Positions 7,811 to 44,474 of a stretch of DNA of 64,000 nucleotides are shown piece after piece. How positions within the stretch are numbered: position 1 is the stretch's first letter; each line of letters begins with the position of its first letter. The translations under genes were made by a program, and so were the position numbers. The DNA lies in contig JAHLLG010000003.1 in assembly GCA_020444275.1 (NCBI GenBank), positions 310,001 to 374,000 on the forward strand. Reading direction: 5' to 3'. The notes beneath the pieces are model-generated. The model was not told the origin of the DNA. It worked only from the letters and a program-made list of their open reading frames with translations, and made no database searches. The stretch comes from Bacteroidota bacterium. Lineage in GTDB: Bacteria; Bacteroidota; Bacteroidia; Bacteroidales; UBA12077.

Positions 7811-7819
7811 ATTTTGTTT

Positions 7820-8080: not shown

Positions 8081-8163
8081 TTGTTTTCTCTTCATGCCTT
8101 TTCTTTATTACACCAAATGGCACATCCCGGTATATAAATCTAATAATTATTGAGAAATTTGGT

Positions 8164-8195
8164 GTGCAAGCAAATATTGTTTGCACCATTTTTTA
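8164..8195 (+). terminator. Terminator-like hairpin after the toxin remnant
   Basis: GTGCAA (8164-8169) pairs with TTGCAC (8181-8186) and is followed by ATTTTTTAT. The stem is short and imperfect. The rest of 8081-8374 holds no gene that I can support. Confidence 0.45.
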
Positions 8196-8320
8196 TGCTA
8201 ACTTATGATAGAAATTCATAACGAAGGACTTTATGTGCGAACCACAATTTAGCATCAATCTAATTAGCTAATTTTTTAACAGTTAGCCCGAAAAACATTT
8301 TTCCGTTCAGATAAAATTTA

Positions 8321-8328
8321 TAATTTTG
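8321..8328 (+). promoter_or_regulatory. Possible promoter -7 box for the secretin operon
   Basis: TAATTTTG fits TAnnTTTG and lies 46 bases before the secretin start at 8375. Because the following genes overlap or abut, this may drive 8375-15,284 as one transcript. The -33 element is not convincing. Confidence 0.4.
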
Positions 8329-8374
8329 AATTCCTTTTTAATTGATTAGTTATTAACCGAAAATCAATAAAACA

Positions 8375-10270: not shown

Positions 10271-10271
10271 C

Positions 10272-11474: not shown

Positions 11475-12014
11475 ATGTTTGTAAATCTTACATATCGAAT
11501 TAAGTTTATCCTTTTAGGAGCAGGGATTGTATTGTTTTTAATCATCTCATATAATCTGGCGTTTAAGAAAACGTTCAGGTTGAAAAACGAATATAAAACC
11601 ATAGAGTCAAGATTAGAGCAATCGAAGAATGCACCCCAGCAAATTGCAATAATCAAATCAAAGTTAGATGAGATTGATAAAAAAGTAGGTGGAAAAAGCA
11701 TTGATCAAATCAACCTGGAAGAGTTGATTATTGAACATATTAGTAGTTATAGCAAACGGAATAATATTGTTTTAAAAGAATATCCTGGCATTCACTACTT
11801 TAGTCAGCAGGATTATACAACCGAAACATGTAAGCTAACTGTAGAAGGTGACTTTATTAAATTACTGAGACTGGCTTATGGAATAGAACAAAACTTCTCA
11901 TATGGAAAAGTATCTTCTTTAAACTTTTACACAGAAAAAAATTATAGAACGAAAGAGATAGAGTTATTGCTCGAGATTTATGTTCAAAACATAAAAATGA
12001 CAACGTATGAATAG
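11475..12014 (+). CDS. PilO/GspM-like platform protein
   Basis: A 179-residue bitopic protein whose ATG directly follows the upstream stop codon. It has a membrane segment at about residues 9-28, a coiled coil (LKNEYKTIESRLEQSK, then IIKSKLDEIDKKV), and a small periplasmic alpha/beta domain (CKLTVEGDFIKLLRLAYGIEQ). This matches PilO/GspM layout: one span, coiled coil, ferredoxin-like domain. The family partners with PilN/GspL in the inner membrane. The stop overlaps the next start by 8 bases, so translation is probably coupled. Sequence similarity in this family is always low, so context carries much of the call. Confidence 0.7.
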   Translation: MFVNLTYRIKFILLGAGIVLFLIISYNLAFKKTFRLKNEYKTIESRLEQSKNAPQQIAIIKSKLDEIDKKVGGKSIDQINLEELIIEHISSYSKRNNIVLKEYPGIHYFSQQDYTTETCKLTVEGDFIKLLRLAYGIEQNFSYGKVSSLNFYTEKNYRTKEIELLLEIYVQNIKMTTYE

Positions 12015-12957
12015 AATATTTTATATATTAATGGCCATGTTGCTTGTTTTTGCAGCATGTGATGATTTCTTCGACGAAGAACTGGAAGGAAAAACCGTTG
12101 AACTAGTTGGTCCCGTAGATAATTTAGAAACAAGTGGCACTTCATTTACATTTTGGTGGAATACAGTTGATGGTGCAACAAAATATAACCTCCAAATTGT
12201 AAGTCCAACGTTTGAGCAGATGGAAGAATTAGTATTAGATACTAACTTAATAGAAACACAATATGAATACCAGTTATATCCGGGTATCTTCCAGTGGAGA
12301 GTAAAAGCAATGAATGGTTCCAGTGAAACGGAATATACCACATATTCATTAACTGTGGATAGTACATTAGACCTAAGCACCAGCACAGTTATTCTTAATA
12401 ATCCAGAAGATAATTATGCAACAAGTGAAACATCGCTGGAATTTTCTTGGGAGACCATAAGTTTGGCTGACGATTATGAATTAAGGCTTATGTTAGGTGA
12501 TTGGGAAACTGGCAGTTTAAAAGCTAAAGAAGAAACGACAGAAAATTCTATTACAATTGATATAACTTCCGAAGGAACATATATTTGGGGAGTTAGGGCA
12601 TCTAATATCTATTCTGTTTCGAAATATGGAACAAACACCTTAATTGTTGATAGAACAGACCCACAAAGACCAACACTTGATTCACCTGCACAAGGAGAAG
12701 AAACGAGTACAAATGTTACCTTTAGTTGGACAAGACCAGATGAAAGTGGTTCAACAATTACAGATAGTTTGTATGTTTCAACAGATTCAACTTTTGTTGC
12801 CAACCATGAAGTTGCAATTAAACGAACAGAAACATCATATTCAAAAACATTTAATGTAACTAGTTCGCAAAAATATTATTGGCGTGTTCGATCTATCGAT
12901 GCTGCCGGAAACAAGAGTGATTATTCTGTAACAAGAAGATTTACCGTTATAAAATGA
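12007..12957 (+). CDS. FN3-type lipoprotein in the secretion operon
   Basis: A 316-residue lipoprotein with signal peptide and lipobox VFAAC (Cys at about residue 18), followed by DDFFDEELEGK. The mature part has three repeats of about 95 residues that look like fibronectin type III modules (SFTFWWNTVDGATKYNLQI; SLEFSWETISLADDYELRL; VTFSWTRPDESGSTITDSL). The third ends YYWRVRSIDAAGNKSDYS, a classic FN3 ending. It is not part of standard type II or type IV pilus sets, yet it overlaps both neighbours (8 bases before, 4 after), so it is probably made together with the machine. I infer a pilotin-like or surface-exposed accessory role; binding specificity is unknown. Confidence 0.75.
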   Translation: MNRIFYILMAMLLVFAACDDFFDEELEGKTVELVGPVDNLETSGTSFTFWWNTVDGATKYNLQIVSPTFEQMEELVLDTNLIETQYEYQLYPGIFQWRVKAMNGSSETEYTTYSLTVDSTLDLSTSTVILNNPEDNYATSETSLEFSWETISLADDYELRLMLGDWETGSLKAKEETTENSITIDITSEGTYIWGVRASNIYSVSKYGTNTLIVDRTDPQRPTLDSPAQGEETSTNVTFSWTRPDESGSTITDSLYVSTDSTFVANHEVAIKRTETSYSKTFNVTSSQKYYWRVRSIDAAGNKSDYSVTRRFTVIK

Positions 12958-13454
12958 AAAACAACAAGAAGATAACATATATTTTATTTCCCCTTGTAAT
13001 TATTATTTGGGGGTTAGTTATATATCGTATCTTTTTTGAAGGTAAAGTTACACCTGAAAATCTCGATGTGAAAGTTAAACCGGTAATTAATAAAGTAGAA
13101 AAAGAAAGTAAAAGAACATATCGTTTGATTGCAAATTATCGTGATCCTTTTTTAAGCAATCTTAATAGAACAGTTGCTAATCCTGAAATAGATAATCAAG
13201 AAACAGAAAATAACAGAACAACTAATTTAAGACGCAGAAGAACAACGGTTTCACGAGTAAGATGGCCACAAATTACCTATGGTGGATTTATTGAAGATAA
13301 TGAAAAACAAGAAATAACCATTTTATTGAATATCCAGGATAGAGATTATTTGGTAAAAGAAGGTGATACTATTGAACAGGTTTTTATCAAATCTTTTTAT
13401 AAAGATTCTCTTGTATTAGTTTATAACGAGGAAGAAAAAACATTAATTAAATGA
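12954..13454 (+). CDS. PilP/GspC-like coupling protein
   Basis: A 166-residue protein with a short cytoplasmic N-terminus, a membrane span at about residues 8-28, a linker containing the RDPF motif typical of PilP/GspC-type proteins (near residue 61), and a C-terminal beta-rich homology-region-like domain (ITYGGFIEDNEKQEITILL, then VKEGDTIEQVFIKSF). In known systems this domain contacts the N-domains of the secretin and couples inner to outer membrane. The start overlaps the FN3 gene and the end overlaps the MORN gene by 4 bases each. Confidence comes from layout, the RDPF motif and operon position. Confidence 0.7.
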   Translation: MKNNKKITYILFPLVIIIWGLVIYRIFFEGKVTPENLDVKVKPVINKVEKESKRTYRLIANYRDPFLSNLNRTVANPEIDNQETENNRTTNLRRRRTTVSRVRWPQITYGGFIEDNEKQEITILLNIQDRDYLVKEGDTIEQVFIKSFYKDSLVLVYNEEEKTLIK

Positions 13455-14023
13455 AAAAAATATATTTAGCTCTACTTTGTATCGTATATGTGAATGTTCT
13501 TTTTGCTCAGGATTACGATAGCAAATATAACACACGTACAGTGCTTATATCTGCACCAGATTCTATAATTAAAGCAAAAATTCGAAATACAAAAACAGAT
13601 TTTAAAATATATGATGAACTGAAGTACTATTGGTTTGCCAATGATAAAATTGGATATAACAGAGGTGGAGTAAATGGCAATGCTTTGCATGGAACATACA
13701 CTGTATATGATGCTGAAAACAGATTAATGACTCAAGGTGAATTTCGTAATGGTTTGAAATTTGGGAAATGGAAAACGTGGTATAAAAATGGGGAGTTAAA
13801 ATCAGTAGAAAATTATAAAGAAGGACTAAAACAAGATATTCAACGTTACTACAATACTAATGGCGAAATAGAGAAGGAAGTTGAATATAAAAAAGGAGTA
13901 AAAGTTGACAAAAATAATGACTCATTCTTAAAAAAGCTATTTAAAAATAAAGAACAAGAAAAAGCTGTTGATGATTCAACCAAAACAAATAAAGAAGTTG
14001 TTAAGAAAAATGATAATCCATAA
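13451..14023 (+). CDS. MORN-repeat (YwqK-like) exported protein
   Basis: A 190-residue protein with a cleavable signal peptide (to about residue 20, VLFAQ|DYD). The centre holds MORN-type repeats: GTYTVYDAENRLMTQGEF, RNGLKFGKWKTWYKNGEL and KEGLKQDIQRYYNTNGEI. It ends with a Lys-rich tail. Database records often call this group the YwqK-family antitoxin, but that name rests on weak evidence and no toxin partner is apparent. The gene overlaps its upstream neighbour by 4 bases and the next gene by 14, so it belongs to the envelope-machine operon. The role is unknown; a structural or binding function in the periplasm is plausible. Confidence 0.75.
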   Translation: MKKIYLALLCIVYVNVLFAQDYDSKYNTRTVLISAPDSIIKAKIRNTKTDFKIYDELKYYWFANDKIGYNRGGVNGNALHGTYTVYDAENRLMTQGEFRNGLKFGKWKTWYKNGELKSVENYKEGLKQDIQRYYNTNGEIEKEVEYKKGVKVDKNNDSFLKKLFKNKEQEKAVDDSTKTNKEVVKKNDNP

Positions 14024-32636: not shown

Positions 32637-32813
32637 AATTAATTGTTTTTGTTTTTATTATATGAACGTACTGTAAAGTTACTTCTGTTATTTTCTCAAT
32701 ATTCTAATCAAATGAACTTTTTACAAAACGATCACTAAGCTTAAGATGTTGATAAAGAGAACTTAAAGATTTAGCGTACACTAACTTACACTGGTTAGGA
32801 AAATAATTGATTT

Positions 32814-32821
32814 TAGATTTG
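32814..32821 (+). promoter_or_regulatory. Possible promoter -7 box for the replication/mobilization genes
   Basis: TAGATTTG fits TAnnTTTG and lies 60 bases before the HTH gene start at 32,882. The rest of 32,637-32,881 is AT-rich and contains no gene I can support. Confidence 0.4.
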
Positions 32822-32881
32822 AATCACATGCTGCAGTTTGTGACTTATCAATAAATTAATTATGAACTAAAATGAATTATT

Positions 32882-33157
32882 ATGGCAGAAAAAATAATGA
32901 CAGTGTCTGATTTCATCGAATTTGAAAAAAGGTTATTCGGTCGAATCGATAATCTCATAATAATGGTTACAGGAAATGAGATAAGAAGAAAATATCTTAA
33001 ATCTAAAGACGTAAGAAAGCTTCTTGGTAATATAAGCGCAGGAAAGCTCCAAGAAATGAGAGTTAAGAAACAGATTAGCTTTATTAAAATAGGTGGAATG
33101 CTCTTATACGATTATGATGAAATAGTAAAAATATTAGAAAACAATAAAATTAAATAA
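32882..33157 (+). CDS. Excisionase/MerR-like helix-turn-helix protein
   Basis: A 91-residue protein with an N-terminal helical region (VSDFIEFEKRLFGRIDNLI) followed by the winged-helix pattern of excisionase-type HTH_17 proteins: LKSKDVRKLLGNISAGKLQEMR, then QISFIKIGGMLLYDYDEIVKIL. Such proteins are common in Bacteroidota integrative elements, where they help excision or control replication and mobilization genes. It is the first gene of a run that continues with 2-base gaps into the replication-type protein and the DnaC-like ATPase. Confidence 0.8.
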   Translation: MAEKIMTVSDFIEFEKRLFGRIDNLIIMVTGNEIRRKYLKSKDVRKLLGNISAGKLQEMRVKKQISFIKIGGMLLYDYDEIVKILENNKIK

Positions 33158-33159
33158 TT

Positions 33160-34110
33160 ATGACAGGATATGATTTAACTAAAAGTATATTCACTCTTGC
33201 TAGTTCAAGCTCTAAAGCTAGACCATATCATATAGTATTATTTTTATACATGGGTGAACTGTGCAATGAATGTAATTGGCCATCAAGATTTAAAATTTCC
33301 CGCATTAATGCATTGAATACAACCTGTATAGGTACTCAGGAAACATATAAAAAAGCATTAAAGGAATTGGAGGAATGGGATACGATAATAATTCACCAAT
33401 TATCAAAGAATCAATTTGAACCTTATGATGTTATCGAAATAAATGAGAGATTTCTGAAAAAACAGAAATCATTATTAAATCATAATGAAATCGAGGCTAA
33501 TTCATTCGAAAATCAAAATGATGATATATATTATAAAACAAGTAAACAAGATAACCCTTTAACTAAAAACGGGATTAAAGATTTTATTTACAGAAAGGAG
33601 ATTTTAAAATTTCTAAAACTAGATAAATATGATCAAAAATTATTTAGTAAGAATGTAAAACATCTTATTTCGAAAAATTTTGAGTTTCTATCACAAAAAG
33701 ATCTGTCAAAAGTTGCGTGTGAACTCAAATTCCATGAACCTTCAGTTCCAATAAATCTTGAAATAGAAACTGTAAAAGATATAATTTCTGATATTCTTAC
33801 ATATTTTGGCTTTGATGCAGAAAAGGATAAGGGAAAGAAGCAAAATGTTATTGATTTCTTGCAAATACTTTCTGAACTAAATAAGGTAGAAGACTTAAAA
33901 AAGCAATTTAGTGCATACAAGGAGTATAAATACAAATCAGGAGAAAATAAACATAGCTTTTTGAACTTCTTAGGGAAAAAGAAGGAGAACTTTTTAGATG
34001 GAGGATGGAATGCTGAAAACTGGGAATTTAAACTTGAAAATATTCGAATTAATGATGAACCAAAAGATAGATATCAAGCAGGAGAAAAAGATCATGGAAA
34101 AACATTATAA
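33160..34110 (+). CDS. Replication-initiation-like protein of the mobile element
   Basis: A 316-residue protein. The N-terminal 100 residues look like a winged-helix domain (RPYHIVLFLYMGELCNECNW, then SRINALNTTCIGTQETYKKA, and KELEEWDTIIIH), the pattern of phage or plasmid replisome-organiser proteins that read DNA through a helix in the middle of the domain. The rest is helical and Lys-rich and has no catalytic motif that I recognise. It sits between the HTH gene (2-base gap) and a DnaC-like helicase-loader ATPase (1-base gap), which supports a role in element replication. The family name cannot be fixed by eye. Confidence 0.6.
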   Translation: MTGYDLTKSIFTLASSSSKARPYHIVLFLYMGELCNECNWPSRFKISRINALNTTCIGTQETYKKALKELEEWDTIIIHQLSKNQFEPYDVIEINERFLKKQKSLLNHNEIEANSFENQNDDIYYKTSKQDNPLTKNGIKDFIYRKEILKFLKLDKYDQKLFSKNVKHLISKNFEFLSQKDLSKVACELKFHEPSVPINLEIETVKDIISDILTYFGFDAEKDKGKKQNVIDFLQILSELNKVEDLKKQFSAYKEYKYKSGENKHSFLNFLGKKKENFLDGGWNAENWEFKLENIRINDEPKDRYQAGEKDHGKTL

Positions 34111-34111
34111 T

Positions 34112-34735
34112 ATGAGTAAGGTCTTAGAAGAAATTTTGAGAATAGGAAAAAGTTCAATAGAGAATTTTCAATTAAATAATTTCGATTTAAAAGTCTATAA
34201 GACACTAATAAAATACTTTTATGGAGATGCTGACTTTGAAAAGCTGAATTCTCATTACAGCCTTAATAAAGGAATCTTTTTGCATGGAAATATTGGAACG
34301 GGTAAATCCAGAGTCTTTGAAATTTTTAGTGAGTTTACGAAGAAGTATTTGCCAGAGAAAAAGTTTCATGTTGTAAAAACAAGTGATATTGCTGATGCTT
34401 TTTATGCGAATGGTTTAGATGCAATTCATAAACATGGTTTGTTGAGCTTTAAGATGTATGATTCGACACCGGACATAACCAAACCAATAACCAAATGTTA
34501 CGATGATTTAGGTGTTGAACCGAAGTTGATCAAAAGCTATGGGAATGAAAGAAATGTCATGGCTGATATTCTTTTAAAGAGGTATGATCTGTTTACCAAA
34601 TATGAAATGAAAACATTCATTTCAACCAATTACAATGCAGATGATATTGAAGCAAACTATGGCGATAGGGTAAGAAGTCGATTAAGAGAAATGTGCAATG
34701 ACATTGTCTACGAGGGAACTGATCGAAGGCGATAA
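34112..34735 (+). CDS. DnaC/IstB-like AAA+ ATPase
   Basis: From ATG 34112 (MSKVLEEILRIG) the protein has 207 residues; an in-frame ATG at 34,094 would add six. The P-loop is GNIGTGKS near residue 62, preceded by the strand KGIFLHG as in DnaC-type helicase loaders. A sensor-like STNYNADDIEANYGDRVRSRL near residue 175 carries the Asn sensor and the Arg-rich finger region of this family. Walker B is weak (CYDDLGVE). The predicted role is loading the replicative helicase at the element origin. It follows the replication-type gene after one base. Confidence 0.8.
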   Translation: MSKVLEEILRIGKSSIENFQLNNFDLKVYKTLIKYFYGDADFEKLNSHYSLNKGIFLHGNIGTGKSRVFEIFSEFTKKYLPEKKFHVVKTSDIADAFYANGLDAIHKHGLLSFKMYDSTPDITKPITKCYDDLGVEPKLIKSYGNERNVMADILLKRYDLFTKYEMKTFISTNYNADDIEANYGDRVRSRLREMCNDIVYEGTDRRR

Positions 34736-34740
34736 TTTAG

Positions 34741-34794
34741 AGCAAGCGGAAACAGGACTAGTCCTGTTTTGCTTGCTTTCGCAAAAGCGAAAGG
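34741..34794 (+). terminator. Strong double hairpin after the replication genes
   Basis: AGCAAGC (34,741-34,747) pairs with GCTTGCT (34,771-34,777), and inside it ACAGGAC pairs with GTCCTGT. A second hairpin CTTTCGC-AAAA-GCGAAAG follows at 34,776-34,793. There is no long T tract, so it may be a terminator, a transcript-stability element or an origin-type structure. Confidence 0.5.
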
Positions 34795-34907
34795 ATCTAA
34801 AAATCAATAACTTAATTAGGTGATGGATATATTAAAAAAGAAAAATATTCTATTAATACATCTATAACACACTATAAATTAATGTTTAATCATAATAATT
34901 GAATAAT

Positions 34908-35501
34908 ATGTCAAAGGAATTAACAACCACAAATATTAGCCGATCTCACCAACAGGTTTTAAAGAAACTTGCACGAAAATTTGAATTATCGCAGGTGGAT
35001 TTTCTGAATGGTGCGGTGGAGTACTTTCGAAAGACCGGTATCAATCCAACGGATGAAATTACCAGCCCAAAAGAAGAGATGGCTGCATTAAACAAACGCC
35101 TCGATCAGGTGATTCGTTTTATTCGGGTGCATGAACGGGACAAATTATCGCCTTTACTGGATAGCCTGATCATTATTGATCGAAGATTGAAAGATAAACT
35201 GGAATTATTATTAACTCAGGAAGATCTGGATAGTATCGAAAGTAAGATCAAGAATTCTTTCCATGAGTTCAGAGGAGTTCTATCTGATAATAAAGAAAAC
35301 ATGGAGCAAATATCTAATTCTGTTTCTACAGCTAATGCAAATTATGTGAGGGGCTATAAGCATCATAATGAAAACCTGGGAAAAGTAATCCAATTGGTTG
35401 AGCTTTTATTTACCCTGCTTATGAATAAGCGTTTGGGTGGATACAACAAAGAGGATATTCAAAAATTTAAAGATGCCATATCTAAAATTCGACAAGCCTA
35501 A
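34908..35501 (+). CDS. BfmA/BtgA-family mobilization protein
   Basis: From ATG 34908 (MSKELTTTNISRSHQQVLKK) the protein has 197 residues; the TTG at 34,899 is less likely. The first 45 residues resemble a ribbon-helix-helix-type DNA-binding segment (RSHQQVLKKLARKFELSQVDF, then NGAVEYFRKTGINP). The rest is long helices suited to coiled-coil oligomerisation. This is the layout of BfmA/BtgA accessory proteins, which bind oriT and help the relaxase in Bacteroides mobilizable elements. Its 3' end overlaps the relaxase start by 29 bases, a typical btgA-btgB arrangement. Confidence 0.8.
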   Translation: MSKELTTTNISRSHQQVLKKLARKFELSQVDFLNGAVEYFRKTGINPTDEITSPKEEMAALNKRLDQVIRFIRVHERDKLSPLLDSLIIIDRRLKDKLELLLTQEDLDSIESKIKNSFHEFRGVLSDNKENMEQISNSVSTANANYVRGYKHHNENLGKVIQLVELLFTLLMNKRLGGYNKEDIQKFKDAISKIRQA

Positions 35502-36783
35502 GCATGTTGCTAACAATAAAGGTAGTTGTGGTAAGCTGGTGAATTACCTGGCAAAAGAAGATGAAAAGAAAGGGCTTGATAAAGAGTTTTTCTTCAATCA
35601 TCTGGATGACTGTATTCCTTCTCTTAAGGTTATTGAAACCATTGATAACAATAAGAAAGGATTGATGAAAACCGATGCTAAATTTTATTCGGGTTCGTTA
35701 AACTTTAGCCAAAAGGAATTGGCTTTTTTGAATAACGATACTAGTAAACTAAAGCAATATATAGTTGAAGTTATGAAAGAATATGCAGACAACTTTAAGA
35801 AAAACCTCACTATTGATGATATTAGCTGGTTTGCTAAAATTGAACATAAAAGATATTATCATGGAACAGATAAAGAAGTTTTACAAGGTAAAGCCAGGCA
35901 AGGAGAGGAGAAGCCGGGTTTAAACACGCATATACATTTCATCATTGGCAGGAAAAGTGCCGACGGGAAAAGAAAATTGAGCCCTCAGTCGAATCACAGA
36001 AATACTAATAAAGGGCCGGTAACCGGGGGGTTTGACCGCGATCGATTTAAAAATAATTGCGAATTGATATTCGATCGGCAATTTTTGTTTAACCGTAGTT
36101 TACAAGAATCATATCAGGCTCTGAAAATTAGAAAGAACGGAAGCCTTCAGGAAAAGCAGAAATATGCTGAGTTGGTTCAATCGAAAGATTTACAGGTCAC
36201 TCAATTTTTGAAATTAAACTATGAAGAAAGAATACATTCTATTGCACATTTTATAGATCAGATCAATGAGAAAACTTCAGGTGAAAAACTGAACAAAAAT
36301 GAAATTTTAAATGCTTCCGATAAACCTTATATGAGCAGTGCCATATACAAAAGCTTGCATAATTTAAACGATAGTATGGCTGCTGGGAAACAACTTGAGA
36401 AACCCACTAAAATTGTATTAAACTATGCGGGGTTTTTAAACAAAAGCATAAAGGATTTACCTGCCGGGTTAAGAGAAGATAAAATACGAAGGGCTTGTTA
36501 CGAATTGCAAACAGGGCAAAAGGGAAAGAAATGGAATATGAATATCCCCAAAGTAATGAATTATGAACGATCCAATAACTTTGCAGGGAAGCTTATCAAT
36601 GATATTATTGATGTAACCACGAAATTGAATTCCAAACAAGATATTCCAATCTCAGGTCCTTTTAAATACCTGTTTGCAAATAACTTTATAACTTACGGAG
36701 GAGAAAACCAGGAGGAAGAGCAAAAAAAGCGCAAAAAAAAGAAAAAGAAGTTGAGAAGAGACAATGATTATTCCAGGTCATAG
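35473..36783 (+). CDS. BtgB/DUF5712-type relaxase
   Basis: ATG 35473 (MPYLKFDKPKHVANNKGSC) is preferred over the longer in-frame start at 35,437, since the shorter form matches the usual N-terminus of the family. The protein has 436 residues. The start region contains GKLVNYLAKEDEKKGL. The centre contains NTHIHFIIGRKSADGK, whose His-Ile-His fits the metal-binding HUH-type motif of relaxases; a Tyr-rich stretch before it (WFAKIEHKRYYHG) may hold the nicking tyrosine. The C-terminus ends in a dense Lys tract. It would nick oriT and pilot the single strand during mobilization by a helper element. Confidence 0.8.
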   Translation: MPYLKFDKPKHVANNKGSCGKLVNYLAKEDEKKGLDKEFFFNHLDDCIPSLKVIETIDNNKKGLMKTDAKFYSGSLNFSQKELAFLNNDTSKLKQYIVEVMKEYADNFKKNLTIDDISWFAKIEHKRYYHGTDKEVLQGKARQGEEKPGLNTHIHFIIGRKSADGKRKLSPQSNHRNTNKGPVTGGFDRDRFKNNCELIFDRQFLFNRSLQESYQALKIRKNGSLQEKQKYAELVQSKDLQVTQFLKLNYEERIHSIAHFIDQINEKTSGEKLNKNEILNASDKPYMSSAIYKSLHNLNDSMAAGKQLEKPTKIVLNYAGFLNKSIKDLPAGLREDKIRRACYELQTGQKGKKWNMNIPKVMNYERSNNFAGKLINDIIDVTTKLNSKQDIPISGPFKYLFANNFITYGGENQEEEQKKRKKKKKKLRRDNDYSRS

Positions 36784-36884
36784 GTAAAATAAATCGAAAT
36801 TTTTCAAATACCTGTTCATATCCGAAAAGCTAGGTTTCATATTCTATATTGATCATTTCATTTGCTCAAAGCTTAATTTTGTAT

Positions 36885-36910
36885 AAAATAAGAGATTAAG
36901 CTCTTATTTT
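36885..36910 (+). terminator. Perfect 10-bp hairpin downstream of the relaxase
   Basis: AAAATAAGAG (36,885-36,894), loop ATTAAG, CTCTTATTTT (36,901-36,910). The T tract is inside the right arm. It separates the mobilization genes from the cargo block. A TAATTTTG box (36,874-36,881) lies directly before it, so the hairpin may instead sit at the start of a transcript. Confidence 0.6.
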
Positions 36911-36967
36911 ATTGACGATTAATTCCAATGATATTTAAAATATTATTTGTAATTTCACAAATACTTG

Positions 36968-37022
36968 TCCGCAGGAGCTGAGTGCGGAGGAGGATACTTT
37001 ACACCCGAATTCCTAAATCGGG
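36968..37022 (+). other. Structured leader upstream of the Cas2-like gene
   Basis: Two hairpins in a GC-richer island inside very AT-rich DNA: TCCGC (36,968-36,972) with GCGGA (36,984-36,988), and CCCGA (37,004-37,008) with TCGGG (37,018-37,022). They are joined by GGAGGATACTTTACA. It lies 66 bases before the gene start. I do not recognise a known riboswitch. A 5' regulatory leader or a small RNA is possible. The rest of 36,784-37,088 holds no gene. Confidence 0.35.
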
Positions 37023-37088
37023 CTTTGAACGTACATTTTGGACTTCGAAAAGGAGCATATTAACAATGTTTCATTAAAATTTTATGTT

Positions 37089-37337
37089 ATGGCTCTTTAT
37101 TTTATTACTTATGATCTGCGAAAAAGTAGAGATTATCAAAAACTTTATGATGAATTAAAAGATTTTAATGCAGTAAAGGTTCTAGAATCTACCTGGTGTT
37201 TTAATAGAGTTAATACTTCGGCAAAGAACTTAAGAGATTATTTTAAACAATTTATTGATTCTGATGACGGATTATTAATTGATGAATCAAAAGATTGGGC
37301 AACCTATAATACATTAGGAACACCTAATAATCTATAA
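37089..37337 (+). CDS. Cas2-fold-like small protein (SinR/VapD-like)
   Basis: ATG 37089 (MALYFITYDLRKSRDYQKL) gives an 82-residue protein; the longer frame from 37,038 reads through unrelated leader sequence. The first strand with Asp after YFITYD, the following helix DYQKLYDELKDF, then STWCF and NLRDYFKQFID match the ferredoxin-like fold of Cas2 and its relatives (SinR, VapD). In nuclease members the first-strand Asp binds metal. There is no cas1, no CRISPR array and no Cas interference gene, so I do not call it a CRISPR adaptation protein. It heads a tight group with a basic mini-protein, a HerA-type ATPase and an exonuclease. Confidence 0.65.
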   Translation: MALYFITYDLRKSRDYQKLYDELKDFNAVKVLESTWCFNRVNTSAKNLRDYFKQFIDSDDGLLIDESKDWATYNTLGTPNNL

Positions 37338-37352
37338 CTTAAAATTAGCTAT

Positions 37353-37493
37353 ATGGCAAAAAATAAGATTAGAAAAATAGGACGAGATGCTGAAACAGGC
37401 AAGTTTATTCCAGTAAAAGAAGCTCAAAAAAGAAAGAAAACGGCTGTTGTTGAAACTATAAAGATCAAAACAAAGAAGAAGAAAAAGAAATGA
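37353..37493 (+). CDS. 46-residue basic protein with RDAxTGKF motif
   Basis: The frame starts at ATG 37353 and codes MAKNKIRKIGRDAETGKFIP, then a charged stretch ending in a run of Lys. The RDAxTGKFVxxxxA followed by a Thr/Val-Val-Glu motif is shared by very short proteins found in many bacteria, often mislabelled as transporters and of unknown function. Its TGA overlaps the ATG of the HerA-type gene by 4 bases, and it starts 15 bases after the Cas2-like gene, so it is almost surely translated as part of this group. Nucleic-acid binding is a reasonable guess from charge. Confidence 0.7.
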   Translation: MAKNKIRKIGRDAETGKFIPVKEAQKRKKTAVVETIKIKTKKKKKK

Positions 37494-39754
37494 AAAGAAC
37501 ACAATCAAAAAGAGCATTAATCCTTTTAATATATATACTGATATTATTCGGATTTAATTACTTGGCCTTTAATAGTTGGCTACCAGCAAAAGATTTTAAA
37601 GGTTTGTGGTTTTATTCAGGTATTGCAAGTATTTTACTTGGCAATTTACTAGTTACACCATTTTATACGAAACCTGTTGATGCAATATCATATTCCGTTG
37701 TTGGGCTTATTACAATATTCTTAGTAAATGATTGGTTGAATTGGGTGCTAATTGATAAAGCAATTTATATTACAGCTCTTTCATTCCAAGGAATAGTTAT
37801 TCTAGTTTCTTTCATTGGAATAATTACTAAGGATAGTGATAAAACGATAGGGATTCAAATATCTAAGACTTGTATGATCTTTTCAGAGTTTTTAGGAAAC
37901 CAAAGAATTGTATTTAGTGTTGTAATTCTTTATGCAATTATTGTTTTTCATAGAACCGAAGTGTTAGAAATGTTTTTTATTACATTAGCTTGGGTGATAA
38001 CTGTGGTTATAGAACCAGATAAACATTTATTTAAAATAATAGAAAGAATTTCTAATGTTTGGAAAGTAAAACAAATTAGGGGTAATCTAGGTTTTATTTC
38101 GGCTTATCAATTGCCTAAAATGATTCTTATAAATCAACCTGAAGATTCTTTTACTGAATTTGGGACTACAATTATTTATAAAGATTCGCACGATTCAATT
38201 AAAACAGGAATTACATTAAATTACGTTGGCAGAAATGAGCAGCTTTTGCTTCGTGCAATTGAATTTGAGAGTACTACTGACGCAATTGAAGTTGCTAAAG
38301 AATCTGCTAAAATATTTAGTTCAAATTCTGTAGCTCAATTTGAGTATTATGATAAGAATCCAGATGAAAAAGATAAAGTATCAATACTTAAGAATATTGA
38401 TGATTTAATTGGAATTGTAGATGAACAAACAAGTGTAGAAAAGCTATGTTTTGAAGTAATTGATAATAATGATATTGAAGAAGGAAGGCTTGTTGAAGTA
38501 GAGATAAATGGTCAAACTGTGTTGTACCAGATTCTTGATGGTCTTACTAAAGAAGATATTGTAATACACAAAAATAAATATGGTTATGCTAGAGCAACAG
38601 CCACTAAAATTGGAATTTGGAATGCAAAAGAAAGAAAATTCTCTCCTGCGAAATGGTTACCTGAAATAAATACTCCAGTATTCTTAAAGAAAACTATTGA
38701 TTATACACCATCATTTGATACAATAGGTCATTTCCCAAAAACTAATTATACAGTAGGAATCGAAAATGTAAATGAGCTAGTGACTCATAATACTGCAATA
38801 TTAGGAATACTTGGAATAGGGAAATCTATGCTTTCTATAGAATTGGTTGAAAGAATGATTGCAGAGAAAATCAGAGTTATTTGTATCGACTTAACAGACC
38901 AGTATGCAGATAAACTTTCTGACTATTATGATGCAGAAACAGAGTCTGAAATAATAGAAGAAATAGCCAATTTAGGTAAAACAGGAAAAACAACGGTTAG
39001 AAAAAATGTAGAAGAAGGTGGTAGTATTAACGAATTAAGGAATGCAATAAAAAATGATTTAAAAGATTTCTTTAGTGATATTAATATGTCATACTTAAAG
39101 ATATATAATCCTGCAAAATTTGAAGCATGGAAACAAGATAGTAAACCTTATCAGGGTGATGCATCTATGATGTCTTTAACACCTACCGAAATTACTCAAA
39201 TAATATCGGAAAGTGCATTAGAGATATGCCAAGAACAAGGAATGACTGAAAATGCTCGTTGTTGTTTAGTATACGAAGAAGCTCATTCATTAATACCAGA
39301 GTGGAACTCAGTTGCATCTGAAGGAGATAAAGCTGCAACTAATGGTACTGCAAGAGCAATTTTACAAGGAAGAAAATACGGACTAGGATGTATGTTAATT
39401 ACTCAAAGAACAGCCAATGTAACCAAAACTATTCTCAATCAATGTAATTCAATTTTTGCAATGAGAACATTTGATGATACAGGTAAAAATTTTATATCAA
39501 ATTATATTGGAAGTGAATATTCTGATAAACTTTCATCTTTAAAAGAAAGACAGGCTGTATTTTATGGTAAAGCTTCTACTTGTGAAAACCCTGTTTTAAT
39601 AAGACTAAACGATAGAGATGATTTTACAAAAGTATTTAGAGAAAAATATCTACCACCAGAACTACCAACTAATGAAGTTGTAGAAAATGAAGAAATTAAA
39701 AACAAAAAAGATACGAAAAAGGAAACAGACGATTTTAACGATTTACCATTTTAA
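37490..39754 (+). CDS. Membrane-anchored HerA/FtsK-type ATPase
   Basis: A 754-residue protein. The N-terminal 190 residues hold several membrane segments (near 9-28, 40-58, 65-85, 92-112, 137-150 and 155-172). A middle domain follows, then a HerA-barrel-like region (near 335-400). The ATPase core has Walker A G-ILG-IGKS with Lys445 and a Walker B ending VYEEAH (Glu596, Glu597), then GRKYGLGCMLITQRTANVTK, the arginine/sensor region typical of HerA (DUF87) proteins. HerA ATPases form hexamers that pump DNA and normally pair with a nuclease; the next gene is an exonuclease 11 bases away. Membrane anchoring is unusual for HerA and closer to FtsK or VirD4. I infer a DNA-handling defence or transfer role. 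Confidence 0.8.
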   Translation: MKRTQSKRALILLIYILILFGFNYLAFNSWLPAKDFKGLWFYSGIASILLGNLLVTPFYTKPVDAISYSVVGLITIFLVNDWLNWVLIDKAIYITALSFQGIVILVSFIGIITKDSDKTIGIQISKTCMIFSEFLGNQRIVFSVVILYAIIVFHRTEVLEMFFITLAWVITVVIEPDKHLFKIIERISNVWKVKQIRGNLGFISAYQLPKMILINQPEDSFTEFGTTIIYKDSHDSIKTGITLNYVGRNEQLLLRAIEFESTTDAIEVAKESAKIFSSNSVAQFEYYDKNPDEKDKVSILKNIDDLIGIVDEQTSVEKLCFEVIDNNDIEEGRLVEVEINGQTVLYQILDGLTKEDIVIHKNKYGYARATATKIGIWNAKERKFSPAKWLPEINTPVFLKKTIDYTPSFDTIGHFPKTNYTVGIENVNELVTHNTAILGILGIGKSMLSIELVERMIAEKIRVICIDLTDQYADKLSDYYDAETESEIIEEIANLGKTGKTTVRKNVEEGGSINELRNAIKNDLKDFFSDINMSYLKIYNPAKFEAWKQDSKPYQGDASMMSLTPTEITQIISESALEICQEQGMTENARCCLVYEEAHSLIPEWNSVASEGDKAATNGTARAILQGRKYGLGCMLITQRTANVTKTILNQCNSIFAMRTFDDTGKNFISNYIGSEYSDKLSSLKERQAVFYGKASTCENPVLIRLNDRDDFTKVFREKYLPPELPTNEVVENEEIKNKKDTKKETDDFNDLPF

Positions 39755-39765
39755 GAATATGCAAT

Positions 39766-40623
39766 ATGAATTTTATAGCATTAGACGTTGAAACTGCAAA
39801 TGCTGATTATTCAAGTATTTGCCAAATAGGAGTAGCTGAGTTTTTTAATGATCAAATAGTGAATACATGGGAAACTCTTATAAATCCTAAAGATTATTTC
39901 GATTTATTAAACATTTCAATACATGGTATTAATGAAGAAAAGGTTAAAAATTCACCAACTTTTGTGCAAGTAGTAGATAAATTAAAAGAGCTAACAAAGG
40001 ATAAAATTATAATTCATCATATGCCATTTGATAGAATAGCAATAAATAGAGCATGTGAATATAATGATATTGACAAGCTTGAAATTAATTGGTTAGATTC
40101 TGCTAAGATAGTAAGGCGCACATGGAGTGAGTTTTCTTATTCAGGATATGGTTTGTTTAATGTGGCTAATTACCTAAAAATAAGTTTTAAACATCACAAT
40201 GCTTTGGAAGATGCAATTGCGGCTGGTAAAATTGTATTAAAAGCTTGTGAGTTAAAAAATATGGATATAAATGATTGGTTTGAAAGAGTTAGAAAACCAA
40301 TAAATATTTATTCCAAAGGTTCATCAGTTCCAAATCTGGAAGGGAATCCTGAAGGATCATTATTTGGTGAGAATGCAGTTTTTACAGGAAGTTTATTTAT
40401 AACGAGAGCAGAAGCCGCTAAACTGGCTTCAGATTTAGGTTGTAACGTTTCAAATTCAGTTAATAAAAAAACTACTATGCTTATAGTAGGGAAACAAGAA
40501 ACCTTTAAGCTTGCAGGTTATCAGAAAAGTTCTAAACATAGAAAAGCAGAGAAGTTAATAACAGAAGGATATGAAATCAGAATTCTTTCAGAGGATGATT
40601 TTAAGGAGTTATTGAAAAACTAG
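39766..40623 (+). CDS. DEDDh 3'-5' exonuclease with C-terminal BRCT domain
   Basis: A 285-residue protein. Residues 1-175 are a DnaQ-type DEDDh exonuclease: Exo I DVET (Asp7, Glu9), Exo II around IIHHMPFDR, and Exo III HNALED (His144, Asp149). Residues about 196-285 form a BRCT domain (GENAVFTGSLFITRAEAAKL, then TTMLIVGKQE, and the C-terminal RILSEDDF). The combination occurs in stand-alone DNA repair nucleases, where BRCT may bind DNA ends or phosphoproteins. It is the last gene of the four-gene group and follows the HerA-type ATPase after 11 bases, in the way NurA or other nucleases accompany HerA. Activity on DNA is expected from motifs; the target is unknown. Confidence 0.88.
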   Translation: MNFIALDVETANADYSSICQIGVAEFFNDQIVNTWETLINPKDYFDLLNISIHGINEEKVKNSPTFVQVVDKLKELTKDKIIIHHMPFDRIAINRACEYNDIDKLEINWLDSAKIVRRTWSEFSYSGYGLFNVANYLKISFKHHNALEDAIAAGKIVLKACELKNMDINDWFERVRKPINIYSKGSSVPNLEGNPEGSLFGENAVFTGSLFITRAEAAKLASDLGCNVSNSVNKKTTMLIVGKQETFKLAGYQKSSKHRKAEKLITEGYEIRILSEDDFKELLKN

Positions 40624-40714
40624 ATCTCAAGATTAGAAATATAGAGATATATTGACTACTCATGTTAATTAAAAGTCATGAACAATTAAATAAAGGTATC
40701 AAAATTATATAATT

Positions 40715-41170
40715 ATGAAAAAAGAAGAACAAAACGTAAATGACCCGATTATCTATTACGCAGAGGATGGTAAAATTTATGACAAATCTTATTCATTTAG
40801 TCCAGAATGTTATGTTGATGGTGAAAATTTTATTGTAAAGAAATATAAAATTGAAGTGCAGAACCACCCGAATCCATTTGGCGAAGGGCATGTGGCTTGT
40901 ATGGGCATAAGACTTTTTCCTGATATGAATGACACGAATGCCCGCTTTAAAGAAGTGCGAATTTTTGCATACCCTCCGGGAATAATCGGGTATCCGCATG
41001 AAGTAGATAATGTATTAAGAATATATTATGATAACCATGTTGTGAATAATATAGTTAGTATATTACTGGCAGGTAAGACCATTGGAATTGTTTACGGACC
41101 TTTAAAATCTGATGATCCTCATTTGAATGATAAACCGTATGCTGACATACATATTATAGAAGATGTTTAA
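40715..41170 (+). CDS. Hypothetical protein of the cargo region
   Basis: A 151-residue soluble protein without signal peptide (MKKEEQNVNDPIIYYAEDGK at the start). It contains a Pro/Gly-rich middle (NHPNPFGEGHVACMGIRLFP) and a C-terminal part with an alpha/beta feel (VNNIVSILLAGKTIGIVYGP). I recognise no family or catalytic motif. It lies 91 bases after the exonuclease gene on the same strand, and base composition is slightly less AT-rich than the ATPase gene, so it may be a separate cargo unit. No partner is apparent. Confidence 0.6.
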   Translation: MKKEEQNVNDPIIYYAEDGKIYDKSYSFSPECYVDGENFIVKKYKIEVQNHPNPFGEGHVACMGIRLFPDMNDTNARFKEVRIFAYPPGIIGYPHEVDNVLRIYYDNHVVNNIVSILLAGKTIGIVYGPLKSDDPHLNDKPYADIHIIEDV

Positions 41171-41229
41171 CAATTTTGTTTTATTAGTTATAAAACTGAA
41201 TTATTTTTAGGTAAGGATAAGTACTAAAT

Positions 41230-42465
41230 TTACTCATCCTGCTTAATTTTGATAGTGTTTTCAATTAATTTATCTAATTTCTTATGAACTTTTAATAAGA
41301 AAGGTATATTATATATGTTTTGATCAATTCTAAGTCTTTCTGTTTTTTCAATCTTGGTAAAAGAAACTTCAAGCATACACTGGAAATATTTTTCATCGTT
41401 CACTTCAAAACCGGATTCTTTTAGCTTTTTAATAACTGTGGTAACATCTTTTTTAACATCTAAAGGAATTTCAAATTCGATTTTCTCAATTTCTTTGGGT
41501 AAGGGGTTTATGCTATTTTGTATTCGGTATCGCGTTTTCTCGAGTAATTCCTTAGCTTCGCCATGAAACCTTGGAGATTGATAGTAACCATCTCCAAAAT
41601 AATTTCTTATGGTACTAGGCCTATACTTTTTAAAATCAAATATTGAAAATAGTGTATCACTAAGTTCCTTTGTTATATTTGAAGATTTAGTTATAATATT
41701 ATTTTTCCATAGCATATAAAAAAGCGAAGCTATTAAACGAGGGTCATGATAATCCATTTTTCCTGATTTATCAATTTCTCCTCTGCTTTCTGCATAAGCA
41801 ACAATTCTTTGTATATTTCGAACCTCTTTTTTTAGTATGTTATTTTCTTTACGAATGATTCTGTTTTGTGTCAAGATTATTTCCTGGGGTTTGTTTTTAA
41901 GCTTATGAAAGTATGATTGAATCCATTTTACAGTTTTATGGTTCATTTGTGATGTATTTATGGAAGTGATCATCCATAGAATAAAGATTAAATCGAGTAG
42001 GGCAGTTCCCAATAAGCAAATCATTTTTAATTCGATTCTTGGAAAAGTTAAATAAATTAGGCTTATGACCAATAAAACAGGAAATAGAATTCGAGTTAAG
42101 AGTAAGTATAATGATTTTGAAACTCTGTAAATCAAATCTCTAATTTTTTCTTGTTTGATACATTTCTCTAAAGCTATAGCAAAGTCGATGTGATCAATGT
42201 TTTTTCCTGTTTGAAAACTTATTTTTGTAATAATTTCATTGAGCTTTCTTTTGGTATTTGCATTCGAATCACCGGAAAAAACCCTTATGAAATGGTTAAG
42301 TCGGTATTTAAATTTATTCGGATACTTTTTATGTAAATAACCGGATTTCGCTTTTCTGTAAAGAAGTCTGAAAAACATTTCAGCATCTTGGAAACTCTTA
42401 TTTTCCTGATTCTCTTGTAGTCTATACTTTCTATAGTTGATAATTTTTTTAAATATTTTATTCAT
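41230..42465 (-). CDS. Two-span membrane protein coupled to the integrase
   Basis: A 411-residue protein with a basic N-terminal cytoplasmic part of about 125 residues, two membrane segments near 120-145 and 150-170 (LTRILFPVLLVISLIYLTF, MICLLGTALLDLIFILWMI), and a C-terminal part of about 240 residues that is helical and charged, with a possible coiled coil (KNKPQEIILTQNRIIRKENN). I recognise no family. Its ATG overlaps the integrase stop by 4 bases, so the two are translationally coupled. Membrane proteins in this position are not needed for recombination, so a link to element stability, conjugation surface exclusion or defence is possible but unproven. Confidence 0.65.
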   Translation of the reverse strand: MNKIFKKIINYRKYRLQENQENKSFQDAEMFFRLLYRKAKSGYLHKKYPNKFKYRLNHFIRVFSGDSNANTKRKLNEIITKISFQTGKNIDHIDFAIALEKCIKQEKIRDLIYRVSKSLYLLLTRILFPVLLVISLIYLTFPRIELKMICLLGTALLDLIFILWMITSINTSQMNHKTVKWIQSYFHKLKNKPQEIILTQNRIIRKENNILKKEVRNIQRIVAYAESRGEIDKSGKMDYHDPRLIASLFYMLWKNNIITKSSNITKELSDTLFSIFDFKKYRPSTIRNYFGDGYYQSPRFHGEAKELLEKTRYRIQNSINPLPKEIEKIEFEIPLDVKKDVTTVIKKLKESGFEVNDEKYFQCMLEVSFTKIEKTERLRIDQNIYNIPFLLKVHKKLDKLIENTIKIKQDE

Positions 42466-43706
42466 GATGCCTGGCTCTCTGGGTTAGTTTCTGATGAATT
42501 TATTTCCTTCCTTAATTTGGAAAAGTCTTTGCTTATTTTTGATTCTAAGATCCTTGCGTAGTATTTTGTTTCTTTGATGGTACTATGTCCTAGAATTTTA
42601 CTTACCGTTTCGATAGAAACACCTTTTGTTAACATCCATGTCGCGCAGGTGTGACGTGCAACATGAAAGGAAATTTCCTTTTTTATCCCGCATATATCTG
42701 CAATTTCTTTTAAATATGCATTGGTTTTTTGGTTACTGGATATCGGTAATAACTGATCTTTTATAGCTGTTTTCGGATGATCTTTATATTTGTCAATAAT
42801 TTTTAACGGTTGTTGAAGTAAAGGAATTCTTGTAAGCTCACCTGTTTTTTGTCGATGCGTAAAAATCCACTTTTCACCATCAATACCTGTAACCAGGTTA
42901 TCTGGTTTTAAGTTAGCAACATCAATGTAAGCTAATCCGGTATAACAACTAAAGATGAAGATGTCTCGTACCATTTCTAGTCTTGGTATTGAAATTTTTT
43001 TATGCTCTATTTTGAGTAATTCCTCTTCATCTAAGAATGTGCGTTCTGTTCTTTTTAGCTTGGGTTTAAATTTCAAGAAAGGATCTTTATCCAACCAATC
43101 GTTTAAAATGGCCAGATTAATAACTTTCTTAACATTCTTAATATATTTTATGGCTGTGTTATGATTGCAGTCTTTAACTACCTTAAAGTACTTTTCAAGA
43201 TTGGTAATAAATGAATATTCCAATTGTTTAAGGTACATATTATTGGTGCCATATTCGTGCTCGATGAAATCTTTTATATGATTCAGAGTAGTTTCGTATC
43301 TTTTTACCGTGGCAGAGGCATATGTTTTACCTTCAAGTTCTTTCATCTGTTTATTGTGATAGTTAAATACTTCAAGAATGGTTTTATGTCTTTTATCTAC
43401 TCCAACCAGCCTGTTTTTAATGGCTTTCGCGGTAACAAATTCCCCTCGGTCTTCCAAATCTCTCTTAATGGCATATATTTTACTTCTAATAGTATCAATA
43501 TGTGAGTTAATAGATAGTGCATCCTCCTTGGTCCCTTTAACATGTCCTTTACCATCCCACCTGGAAGGTAAAACCTTACTATTAATAGAACCTTCAACCT
43601 TTTTGCCATTAACCGTTATTCTATAATATATTGGAGACTTTCCTTTACTATCCTTTTTATCTGTCTTTATATAAAATAAAACGCTAAATGTTATTTTTTG
43701 AATCAT
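42462..43706 (-). CDS. Tyrosine recombinase/integrase (Bacteroidota mobile-element type)
   Basis: A 414-residue integrase with an N-terminal arm/Arm-DNA-binding-like domain (KSPIYYRITVNGKKVEGSIN), a SAM-like core-binding domain (near 105-200) and a catalytic domain. Visible catalytic motifs are HVARHTCATW near residue 347 (box II His-x-x-Arg), the following LGHSTIKETKYYARI with the His/Trp position, and nucleophile Tyr near 382. The box I Arg is replaced in CYTGLAYIDV, as in some Bacteroides conjugative-element integrases such as IntDOT. It is transcribed away from ssrA and into the coupled membrane-protein gene. It should catalyse integration and excision of this element. Confidence 0.92.
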   Translation of the reverse strand: MIQKITFSVLFYIKTDKKDSKGKSPIYYRITVNGKKVEGSINSKVLPSRWDGKGHVKGTKEDALSINSHIDTIRSKIYAIKRDLEDRGEFVTAKAIKNRLVGVDKRHKTILEVFNYHNKQMKELEGKTYASATVKRYETTLNHIKDFIEHEYGTNNMYLKQLEYSFITNLEKYFKVVKDCNHNTAIKYIKNVKKVINLAILNDWLDKDPFLKFKPKLKRTERTFLDEEELLKIEHKKISIPRLEMVRDIFIFSCYTGLAYIDVANLKPDNLVTGIDGEKWIFTHRQKTGELTRIPLLQQPLKIIDKYKDHPKTAIKDQLLPISSNQKTNAYLKEIADICGIKKEISFHVARHTCATWMLTKGVSIETVSKILGHSTIKETKYYARILESKISKDFSKLRKEINSSETNPESQAS

Positions 43707-43943
43707 TTTTGGTGTCCGAATTGGTTTATCTCATATCAAATTAAAGTAAAATTGATTAAAAAAGCAAATAATAATATAGAATATAAAATATTGATATCAA
43801 AAATGTTAACCTTAATATAACACTAGATCGAAAATGATATCAGGTATTATTACGTGATATCATTTTACGAATAGTTTAATACTCCATAATCCAATAATGA
43901 TATCACTTGCATAATTTTTAGATACCAAATCGGACACCATTTT
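43706..43943. promoter_or_regulatory. Inverted-repeat cluster upstream of the integrase (candidate operator/attachment region)
   Basis: Two inverted-repeat pairs are nested. GGTGTCCGAATTGG (43,711-43,724) faces CCAAATCGGACACC (43,925-43,938) with one mismatch. Between them AAAATGATATCA (43,831-43,842) faces TGATATCATTTT (43,855-43,866) perfectly, and a further AATGATATCA half-site lies at 43,895-43,904. Such arrays may be arm-type integrase sites or repressor operators. Confidence 0.55.
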
Positions 43944-44013
43944 GTAAAAAACGAATATGGTACATGATTAGGTGACGTTTATTATGTGAATTTATGAATA
44001 TTCTGTGAAGTGT

Positions 44014-44056
44014 AAAAAAAGAAAAACAGCATTAATTCTTTGATTTATGCTGTTTT
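44014..44056 (-). terminator. Terminator of the tmRNA gene
   Basis: On the minus strand, AACAGCAT (44,047-44,054) pairs with ATGCTGTT (44,025-44,032), followed by a T-rich tract complementary to the A run at 44,014-44,026. It sits 27 bases past the tmRNA 3' end. Confidence 0.75.
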
Positions 44057-44080
44057 GCGTTATTTTGTATTTTACTTTTG

Positions 44081-44474
44081 TGGAGCCGGCGGGAGTCGAA
44101 CCCGCGTCCGAATAAAGAACCCAAATGCTTTCTACATGCTTAGCTTTTCATTGGTTTTCGTGATTAACGTGGCGAAAAGCAGCCCAATTAATCCTTAGCT
44201 TCTTAAACTTCGCCGGGTTATCGAAGCGTTAACCCAACTATCTCAACTTTTACGATGCCTCTAAACCAAACGCCGTCGAGAAAGGCTTTTGAGAGACAAC
44301 TTGTCCTAAAGTCTTACTTCAGGATTAAACTTAATTTGCCTAGCAATATTAAGCTGCAAGTGCGTAATTGTTTTCGCCGTTTATAAAGTTGAATATTGAG
44401 ATTTACGAGCCAACATCCAAAGCTCGGCATGCTTACATTCCAGTTTACCTTACCGTCAAAACCAAGGCGGCCCC
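44081..44474 (-). ncRNA. ssrA: tmRNA (transfer-messenger RNA)
   Basis: Both ends carry the tRNA-like signature: the 5' end reads GGGGCCGCC followed by TTGGTTTTGACGG, and the 3' end reads GACTCCCGCCGGCTCCA with CCA encoded. The internal reading frame ends GGC GAA AAC AAT TAC GCA CTT GCA GCT TAA, giving the proteolysis tag ending GENNYALAA that is typical of Bacteroidota. Length of about 394 bases is normal. The RNA rescues stalled ribosomes together with SmpB. The 3' end lies next to the integrase side of the mobile element, a known type of insertion site. Confidence 0.95.

Follow-up and report, generated by a model that had tools for sequence, protein, structure and literature searches.

Here we report an analysis of four adjacent genes in a 64,000-nucleotide stretch of a Bacteroidota bacterium genome (contig JAHLLG010000003.1, positions 310,001 to 374,000 of the forward strand; hereafter the window, from whose first letter all positions are counted). 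The genes encode a Cas2-like protein, a 46-residue basic protein, a HerA-type ATPase and a DEDDh-BRCT exonuclease, and they lie in the cargo region of a mobilizable integrative element. They are independently mobile accessory genes that have a strand in common without a common evolutionary history, and the ATPase is best read as a stand-alone, membrane-anchored motor of the HerA family, which we name TM-HerA. For this motor, carried in independently mobile cargo, we lean towards a role as an anti-invader factor, with a confidence that stops just short of an even chance. The four genes are as follows.

37089..37337, + strand: Cas2-like small protein, 82 amino acids (ATG start at 37089; alternative TTG start at 37038)
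37353..37493, + strand: 46-residue basic protein of the GRDAxTGxF family (from relatives recovered in searches)
37490..39754, + strand: membrane HerA (TM-HerA) ATPase (from profile, hydropathy and model)
39766..40623, + strand: DEDDh exonuclease with C-terminal BRCT domain (from Pfam, PADLOC and PHROGs)

The initial annotation of this region, made from the sequence alone, described the four genes as a coherent module, possibly a membrane-associated, DNA-degrading defence or plasmid-control system. Its description of the genes themselves was borne out: all four open reading frames (ORFs) were found where it placed them, on one strand with spacings of 15, -4 and 11 bases, the Cas2-like, HerA-type, exonuclease and BRCT domains each scored above their Pfam cut-offs, and the tiny RDAxTGKF protein that it singled out is an ORF whose GRDAxTGxF family has relatives in both genomes and plasmids. 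The run starts 305 bases after the end of a relaxase gene, the next ORF lies 91 bases downstream, and a promoter-like site (TTG-n22-TAnnTTTG, at 36849) stands 5′ of the first gene, one of eight such sites found window-wide on both strands. To place the genes in a wider context, whole genomes and plasmids were searched with each of the four proteins, phages with two and viral contigs with three, and the loci recovered were compared in tblastn matrices, the final one setting eleven window proteins against 84 loci, from which the loci of the own genome (seven) and the control stretches (six) had been excluded. Two of the four families occurred together in none of the 84 loci, apart from a 21-residue RDAxTGKF match inside the ATPase gene of locus L034; the 84 include overlapping fetches of one place and many loci with only 1.5 kb of flank, the informative distinct places numbering 11 for TM-HerA, nine for the exonuclease, seven for the basic protein and six for the Cas2-like protein (a seventh Cas2-like place, L043, was seen in the whole-genome search and gave no match in the final tblastn). 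Genomes G108 and G211, which carry the ATPase, were likewise absent from those matching the Cas2-like protein, the basic protein or the exonuclease.

A single working system, in which the Cas2-like and basic proteins would regulate or load, the ATPase would pump DNA and the exonuclease would degrade it, finds encouragement in the tight spacing on one strand, in the promoter-like site before the first gene and in the known pairing of HerA proteins with nucleases. Against it stand not only the matrices but also the closest relative of the ATPase (L033, 72% identical), which has different neighbours, a 66% identical Cas2-like gene whose cassette-like array lacks the other three, and nine exonuclease neighbourhoods, covering ∼6 kb on most sides, that hold none of the other three genes. 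We consider such a system very improbable and already largely refuted. The initial annotation had itself held that homologues rarely being neighbours elsewhere would argue for chance adjacency, and across the 84 loci they were not neighbours; the four-gene module is accordingly rejected on the genome, plasmid, phage and viral-contig searches as well as on the matrices, and the label “DNA-degrading” finds no support, since the exonuclease is not retained alongside the ATPase. A toxin-antitoxin pair formed by the Cas2-like and RDAxTGKF proteins was also considered and rejected, as no such pair was present in the loci examined. Close same-strand spacing in a cargo region thus did not signal joint function here.

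The ATPase consists of a membrane-like part (residues ∼9-174), a region of unclear fold (∼200-305), a HAS-barrel-like part (∼306-424) and a HerA motor (∼425-718). A hydropathy script placed five membrane-like segments within residues 9-174, in agreement with the N-terminal membrane domain proposed at the outset, and the Lys445 and Glu596/597 motifs named there proved to be invariant, together with G439, G442 and G444, across nine family members, as expected of the GxxGxGKS Walker A and acidic Walker B motifs in the RecA-type core of HerA. PF01935 matched with 31.0 bits (cut-off 23.2), and a profile of the ATPase aligned with soluble HerA over residues ∼320-710 with a probability of 99.4%. The Pfam HAS-barrel family gave no match in the ATPase at E ≤ 1; a barrel ahead of the motor is nevertheless indicated by the profile alignment, which begins at ∼320, and by a structural model whose residues 301-718 aligned with HerA, soluble HerA rows having been included in that model. 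Among PDB profile matches of the ATPase sequence (n = 9), eight could be identified as HerA from their name or entry title, the ninth being the viral packaging ATPase B204. A first model, built from three sequences, had a mean predicted local distance difference test (pLDDT) score of 41 and was left out of the fold searches, and a second, built from nine sequences, reached 57.4, with fair quality across most of the barrel and motor and low quality in the rest. The ATPase fell far short of the curated models for anti-phage HerA (NF042944, 56.8 versus 850 bits; NF042943, 51.6 versus 800), and those of PADLOC covered mainly the C-terminal motor (best match 1.7e-25, residues 583-698).

Relatives of the ATPase were sought in 395 genomes of the phylum, the window's own included, with two candidates scored per genome, so that members may be missed. 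Long matches came from the own genome and at least two others, G108 (with two copies) and G211, and in another 32 genomes the match was confined to the C-terminal motor part; extending the search to 195 genomes of the class of G108 added G416. With the plasmid and viral relatives, TM-HerA extends over the phylum of the window, Alphaproteobacteria, Campylobacterota and a prophage. In a FastTree phylogeny with midpoint rooting of the window ATPase, nine relatives and 33 other HerA-type proteins recovered by the same searches (n = 43; L069, a fragment too short for inclusion, and L036 were omitted), the ten TM-HerA proteins formed a single clade with support of 1.0. Nine of the ten have four to six hydrophobic membrane-like segments, one of which is internal in L034, and the tenth (L037), whose annotated start is late, has none. 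An N-terminal cluster of such segments was seen in none of the 33 other HerA-type proteins.

Eleven TM-HerA loci lie outside the window, and they reveal no fixed partner gene; some of them adjoin genes of known defence systems. In L083 (genome G416, ATPase 52% identical), TM-HerA has a type IIG restriction enzyme (2.1e-286) on one side and a gene with a hydrophobic start on the other, with AbiE further on followed by a CBASS cyclase (1.5e-148) and its TIR effector (2.4e-113). The ATPase of an Aminobacter plasmid (L034) is upstream of DRT8 (1.8e-136) and a retron-type reverse transcriptase (RT)-DUF3800 gene (2e-251), with AbiE annotated upstream, and that of an Arcobacter plasmid (L035) sits amid type I restriction genes, adjoining a gene annotated as SLATT and matching a two-transmembrane (2TM) effector model. 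On two Bradyrhizobium plasmids (L036 and L037) an annotated abortive-infection (Abi) gene is found beside the ATPase. In the prophage, on a viral contig (L063), the ATPase comes after genes for a terminase, a portal protein and a DNA methyltransferase, and a weak replication-initiation match lies further on. The stretch from portal gpQ to replication gpA of P2-like phages is a defence hotspot (PMC9122126), and if L063 is P2-like, as we read it, its ATPase possibly occupies that position, gpA itself not having been identified in L063. Clear PADLOC systems are thus near three of the eleven ATPases (L034, L035 and L083), L063 offers a methylase and the possible hotspot, annotation adds L036 and L037, and the remaining five show little or nothing. 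As a separate observation on L083, positions 1168-13739 constitute a dense defence island, in which the hydrophobic-start gene is without a PADLOC match.

A small control, based on annotation and on incomplete PLSDB tables, pointed in the same direction, with restriction, Abi, RT or CBASS genes in none of six other 18-kb stretches of three ATPase plasmids versus all three stretches at the ATPase. A number of observations nevertheless weigh against a defensive reading of TM-HerA, beginning with the size and basis of this control, in which a single giant gene took up one stretch and HipA toxins and an exonuclease-AAA ATPase pair were present in another. PADLOC was applied to chosen neighbours only in the eleven loci, and the abortive-infection gene of L036 had no match to it. 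L041 has weak matches only, to LmuA in a protease (5.5e-12) and to a HigA-like regulator in one of several small genes (6.1e-5), with an integrase nearby; L039 and L040 place the ATPase amid housekeeping genes, with no PADLOC match in six of six scanned neighbours; the two neighbours scanned on the 5.8-kb contig of L033 were also without a match; and L038 is a 120-residue ATPase fragment in an unannotated record. Within the window, where the PADLOC, Pfam and NCBIfam scans covered ten proteins of the element, PADLOC matched only the Cas2-like protein, HerA and the exonuclease at E < 0.001, and no known system was completed. Defence neighbours may simply mark mobile cargo in general, because the other three families are also found near defence genes: in the seven annotated exonuclease loci these are a type ISP restriction/modification gene (L072), a TIR-domain gene (L071) and an ABC-three-component gene (L077), a relative of the basic protein is beside a Pycsar pair, and a relative of the Cas2-like protein is beside a ThsB-type gene. 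The structural model has limits of its own: the membrane part and residues 200-305 were modelled without confidence, and the best match of residues 301-718, HerA 8xau (Z 28.1 over 332 residues at 3.2 Å), was obtained with soluble HerA rows in the alignment, which bias the fold match towards HerA. The membrane-associated defence function originally suggested keeps a measure of support for the ATPase alone, some of whose relatives have restriction, CBASS, DRT, retron or AbiE genes close by; this does not extend to the set of four.

If TM-HerA does act against invaders, its N-terminal helices would tether a HerA hexamer to the inner membrane, where it would engage foreign double-stranded DNA, and ATP-driven translocation might then block, extrude or expose the invading DNA; the hexamer, the DNA substrate, the defensive function and the step of action are all predictions. 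The stronger proposal that TM-HerA represents an undescribed single-gene defence family, spread by mobile elements, whose membrane-anchored hexamer would meet invading DNA without a dedicated nuclease, is possible, if on the doubtful side. Another explanation is that the protein is a coupling-type or FtsK-type motor that delivers the DNA of the element to a mating channel or aids its segregation. Membrane-like segments followed by a RecA-type motor, encoded downstream of a relaxase, would suit such a role, and the model has a motor fold in common with TrwB (Z 17.7, 249 residues), TcpA (Z 16.9) and FtsK (Z 16.8), although HerA appears closer, barrel included, in this model that leans towards it, followed among others by TdpAB (8wfd, Z 22.6) and VirB4 (Z 20.5). 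The weak match to the TrwB_AAD_bind family PF10412 (16.9 bits) is below its cut-off of 20.5, and no coupling protein was among the PDB profile matches, so that membership of the VirD4/TraG family, which the initial annotation had raised as an alternative, is not reached by sequence. In addition, the ATPase was present in none of seven other MobB relaxase loci, each covering only ∼1.5 kb per side, and no mobilization gene was spotted by eye beside the relatives in L039, L040 and L063. We judge a motor serving the element to be quite unlikely.

A further alternative is that the ATPase works as an effector dependent on a partner from the host, such as a nuclease or a membrane protein, and that it arrests or kills the infected cell instead of acting unaided on invading DNA. 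No conserved partner was seen in the loci compared, whereas characterised HerA proteins, according to PDB entry titles and published abstracts, work with SIR2, DUF4297 or NurA, and membrane proteins encoded in defence loci are regarded as effectors (PMC9122126). No partner was identified, however, and the conserved motor motifs are those expected of an active pump, so we hold this explanation to be unlikely, and retain as our tentative preference the stand-alone membrane-anchored HerA acting against invaders.

The other three genes have their own distributions. The Cas2-like protein matches PF09827 with 26.1 bits (cut-off 23.8) and phrog_1090 at 5.5e-20, and among the 395 phylum genomes it matched, besides its own, two at 32% and 24% identity; a further 60 plasmid records matched as well. 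Across the phylum boundary, a Vibrio vulnificus plasmid (L050, 3001-3246) carries the 66% identical gene mentioned above, flanked by two copies of a 47-nucleotide repeat that is present ten times around it; between the flanking copies the only extra frame is an annotated 40-residue DUF3265 gene on the opposite strand, overlapping a repeat, and GFA and VOC genes are nearby. This array looks like an integron cassette array, of which we take DUF3265 to be a mark. Relatives were also present in two viral contigs (63% and 45% identity). The contig with the 63% identical gene (L078, 3998-5600), on which a Zot-like gene was noted by eye, has after the Cas2-like gene a small membrane protein of the PDC-M50A type (2.6e-55) and a ThsB-type TIR protein (8.4e-84), possibly a defence pair. 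CRISPR Cas2 proteins resemble the window protein, which likewise exceeds the PF09827 cut-off, but differ in setting, the relatives of the window protein being in a cassette-like array and in two viral contigs. Inspection of the window ORFs by eye revealed no cas1 gene, and no CRISPR search was run.

For the 46-residue protein, neither Pfam nor NCBIfam, PHROGs or PADLOC gave a significant match. Its relatives are in four phylum genomes besides its own, one of them weak, and on three plasmids, of Alteromonas, Hymenobacter and Paracoccus. In L061 (3587-5329), ∼250 bases separate an RDAxTGKF gene from a Pycsar pair downstream of it, made up of a cyclase (PycC, 4.5e-91) and a PycTM-like effector (1.2e-12). 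The Aminobacter ATPase includes an RDAxTGKF-like stretch (L034, 8979-9044; E 5e-4 against a profile built from seven RDAxTGKF proteins), and a relationship between the small protein and the ATPase barrel was considered on this account; the match was limited to this one of nine ATPases, the other eight being unlisted at E ≤ 10, and we take it as chance. The exonuclease matches PF00929 with 54.5 bits (cut-off 24; 2.6e-14), as a DnaQ/RNase_T domain should, and its BRCT domain matches PF00533 with 29.5 bits (cut-off 21.3; 9.1e-7); the exonuclease part also matches the PADLOC candidate model PDC-S48 (3.9e-24), and the protein matches phrog_192 (2e-40). Relatives are found in the own genome and two others of the 395 (E ≤ 1e-30), in 37 plasmid records (E ≤ 1e-20) and in 52 phage records (E ≤ 1e-10), many from Staphylococcus and Streptococcus phages; in phages and plasmids the gene is separate from the other three. 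With a domain order identical to that of DnaQ-type exonucleases with BRCT (phrog_192; PRK06195-like), it looks like an ordinary member of that type.

The surrounding region forms the cargo of a mobilizable integrative element that adjoins a transfer-messenger RNA (tmRNA) gene. Its other features are listed here.

33160..34110, + strand: 316-amino-acid gene, replication-like (label from position only)
33998..34735, + strand: DnaC-like ATPase (phrog_50 DnaC-like helicase loader, 6.4e-16)
34899..35501, + strand: BfmA/BtgA-type mobilization protein (NF041200, 64.4 bits, cut-off 24)
35437..36783, + strand: MobB-family relaxase (PF18976, 267 bits, 3.3e-79)
40715..41170, + strand: 151-amino-acid orphan gene (no family in the Pfam, NCBIfam, PHROGs and PADLOC scans)
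41230..42465, - strand: 411-amino-acid gene, no recognised family (from the ORF list and family scans)
42462..43706, - strand: tyrosine integrase of the element (PF00589, 5e-18; PF13102, 8.5e-18; PF17293, 6.2e-17)
44080..44474, - strand: tmRNA gene, probable attachment site (from adjacency)

Relaxase and integrase, the hallmarks of a mobilizable integrative element, are both present, in the form of the MobB protein, the BfmA-type protein and the tyrosine integrase; the MobB relaxase is above the cut-off of PF18976 and, with 198.1 bits, slightly below the cut-off of 200 of NF041495. No conjugation genes were spotted by eye in the ORFs between 33160 and 43706, nor were any among the ten proteins scanned against families. 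The element is A+T-rich, with a G+C content of 0.304 across 32650-44075 versus 0.340 and 0.344 on the flanks. Comparison of the tmRNA end with the left flank gave no convincing attachment repeat, so integration at the tmRNA gene is proposed from adjacency. MobB relatives in seven other genomes (38-47% identity) were considered as a route to the cargo of sister elements and proved uninformative, being only that similar and having loci with just ∼1.5 kb of flank per side. The 411-amino-acid gene shares four bases with the integrase gene, which also lies on the - strand; nothing in it exceeded a Pfam cut-off, and NCBIfam, PHROGs and PADLOC gave no significant match.

Comparison with characterised systems helps to define what distinguishes TM-HerA. 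A literature search, with preprints and most subscription papers outside its reach, found no description of a membrane HerA defence family. Like VirD4/TrwB, TM-HerA has membrane segments followed by a RecA-type motor, but it differs in the sub-threshold PF10412 score, in PDB profile matches free of coupling proteins and in its HAS-barrel-like part. The TdpA-TdpB and DndH proteins have a related motor fold (Z 22.6 for TdpAB; Z 20.1 for the DndH C-domain), and TdpAB is linked to phosphorothioate defence; the N-terminus of TM-HerA is distinct from theirs, and no modification gene was recognised among the scanned window proteins. The HerA-NurA repair motor has a fold in common with TM-HerA (4d2i, Z 25.3; 9x1m, Z 24.4), which differs in having membrane-like segments, in being carried by mobile elements in several cases and in having no adjoining NurA that was recognised. 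NurA, DUF4297 and SIR2 genes were absent from the ten window proteins scanned, while the loci of relatives were scanned for chosen neighbours only. The HerA proteins of HerA-DUF4297 and SIR2-HerA (Nezha) have the barrel and motor, the Walker motifs and a QGRKYG...QR region in common with TM-HerA (Z 18.9-28.1), whereas TM-HerA adds N-terminal membrane-like segments and the 200-305 region, and forms a clade separate from the 33 proteins compared. HerA defence proteins with solved structures, judging from PDB entry titles, pair with a nuclease or a SIR2 enzyme, and a HerA clade with membrane segments and without a steady partner would, if defensive, provide a one-gene test case for a DNA pump that stops invaders alone.

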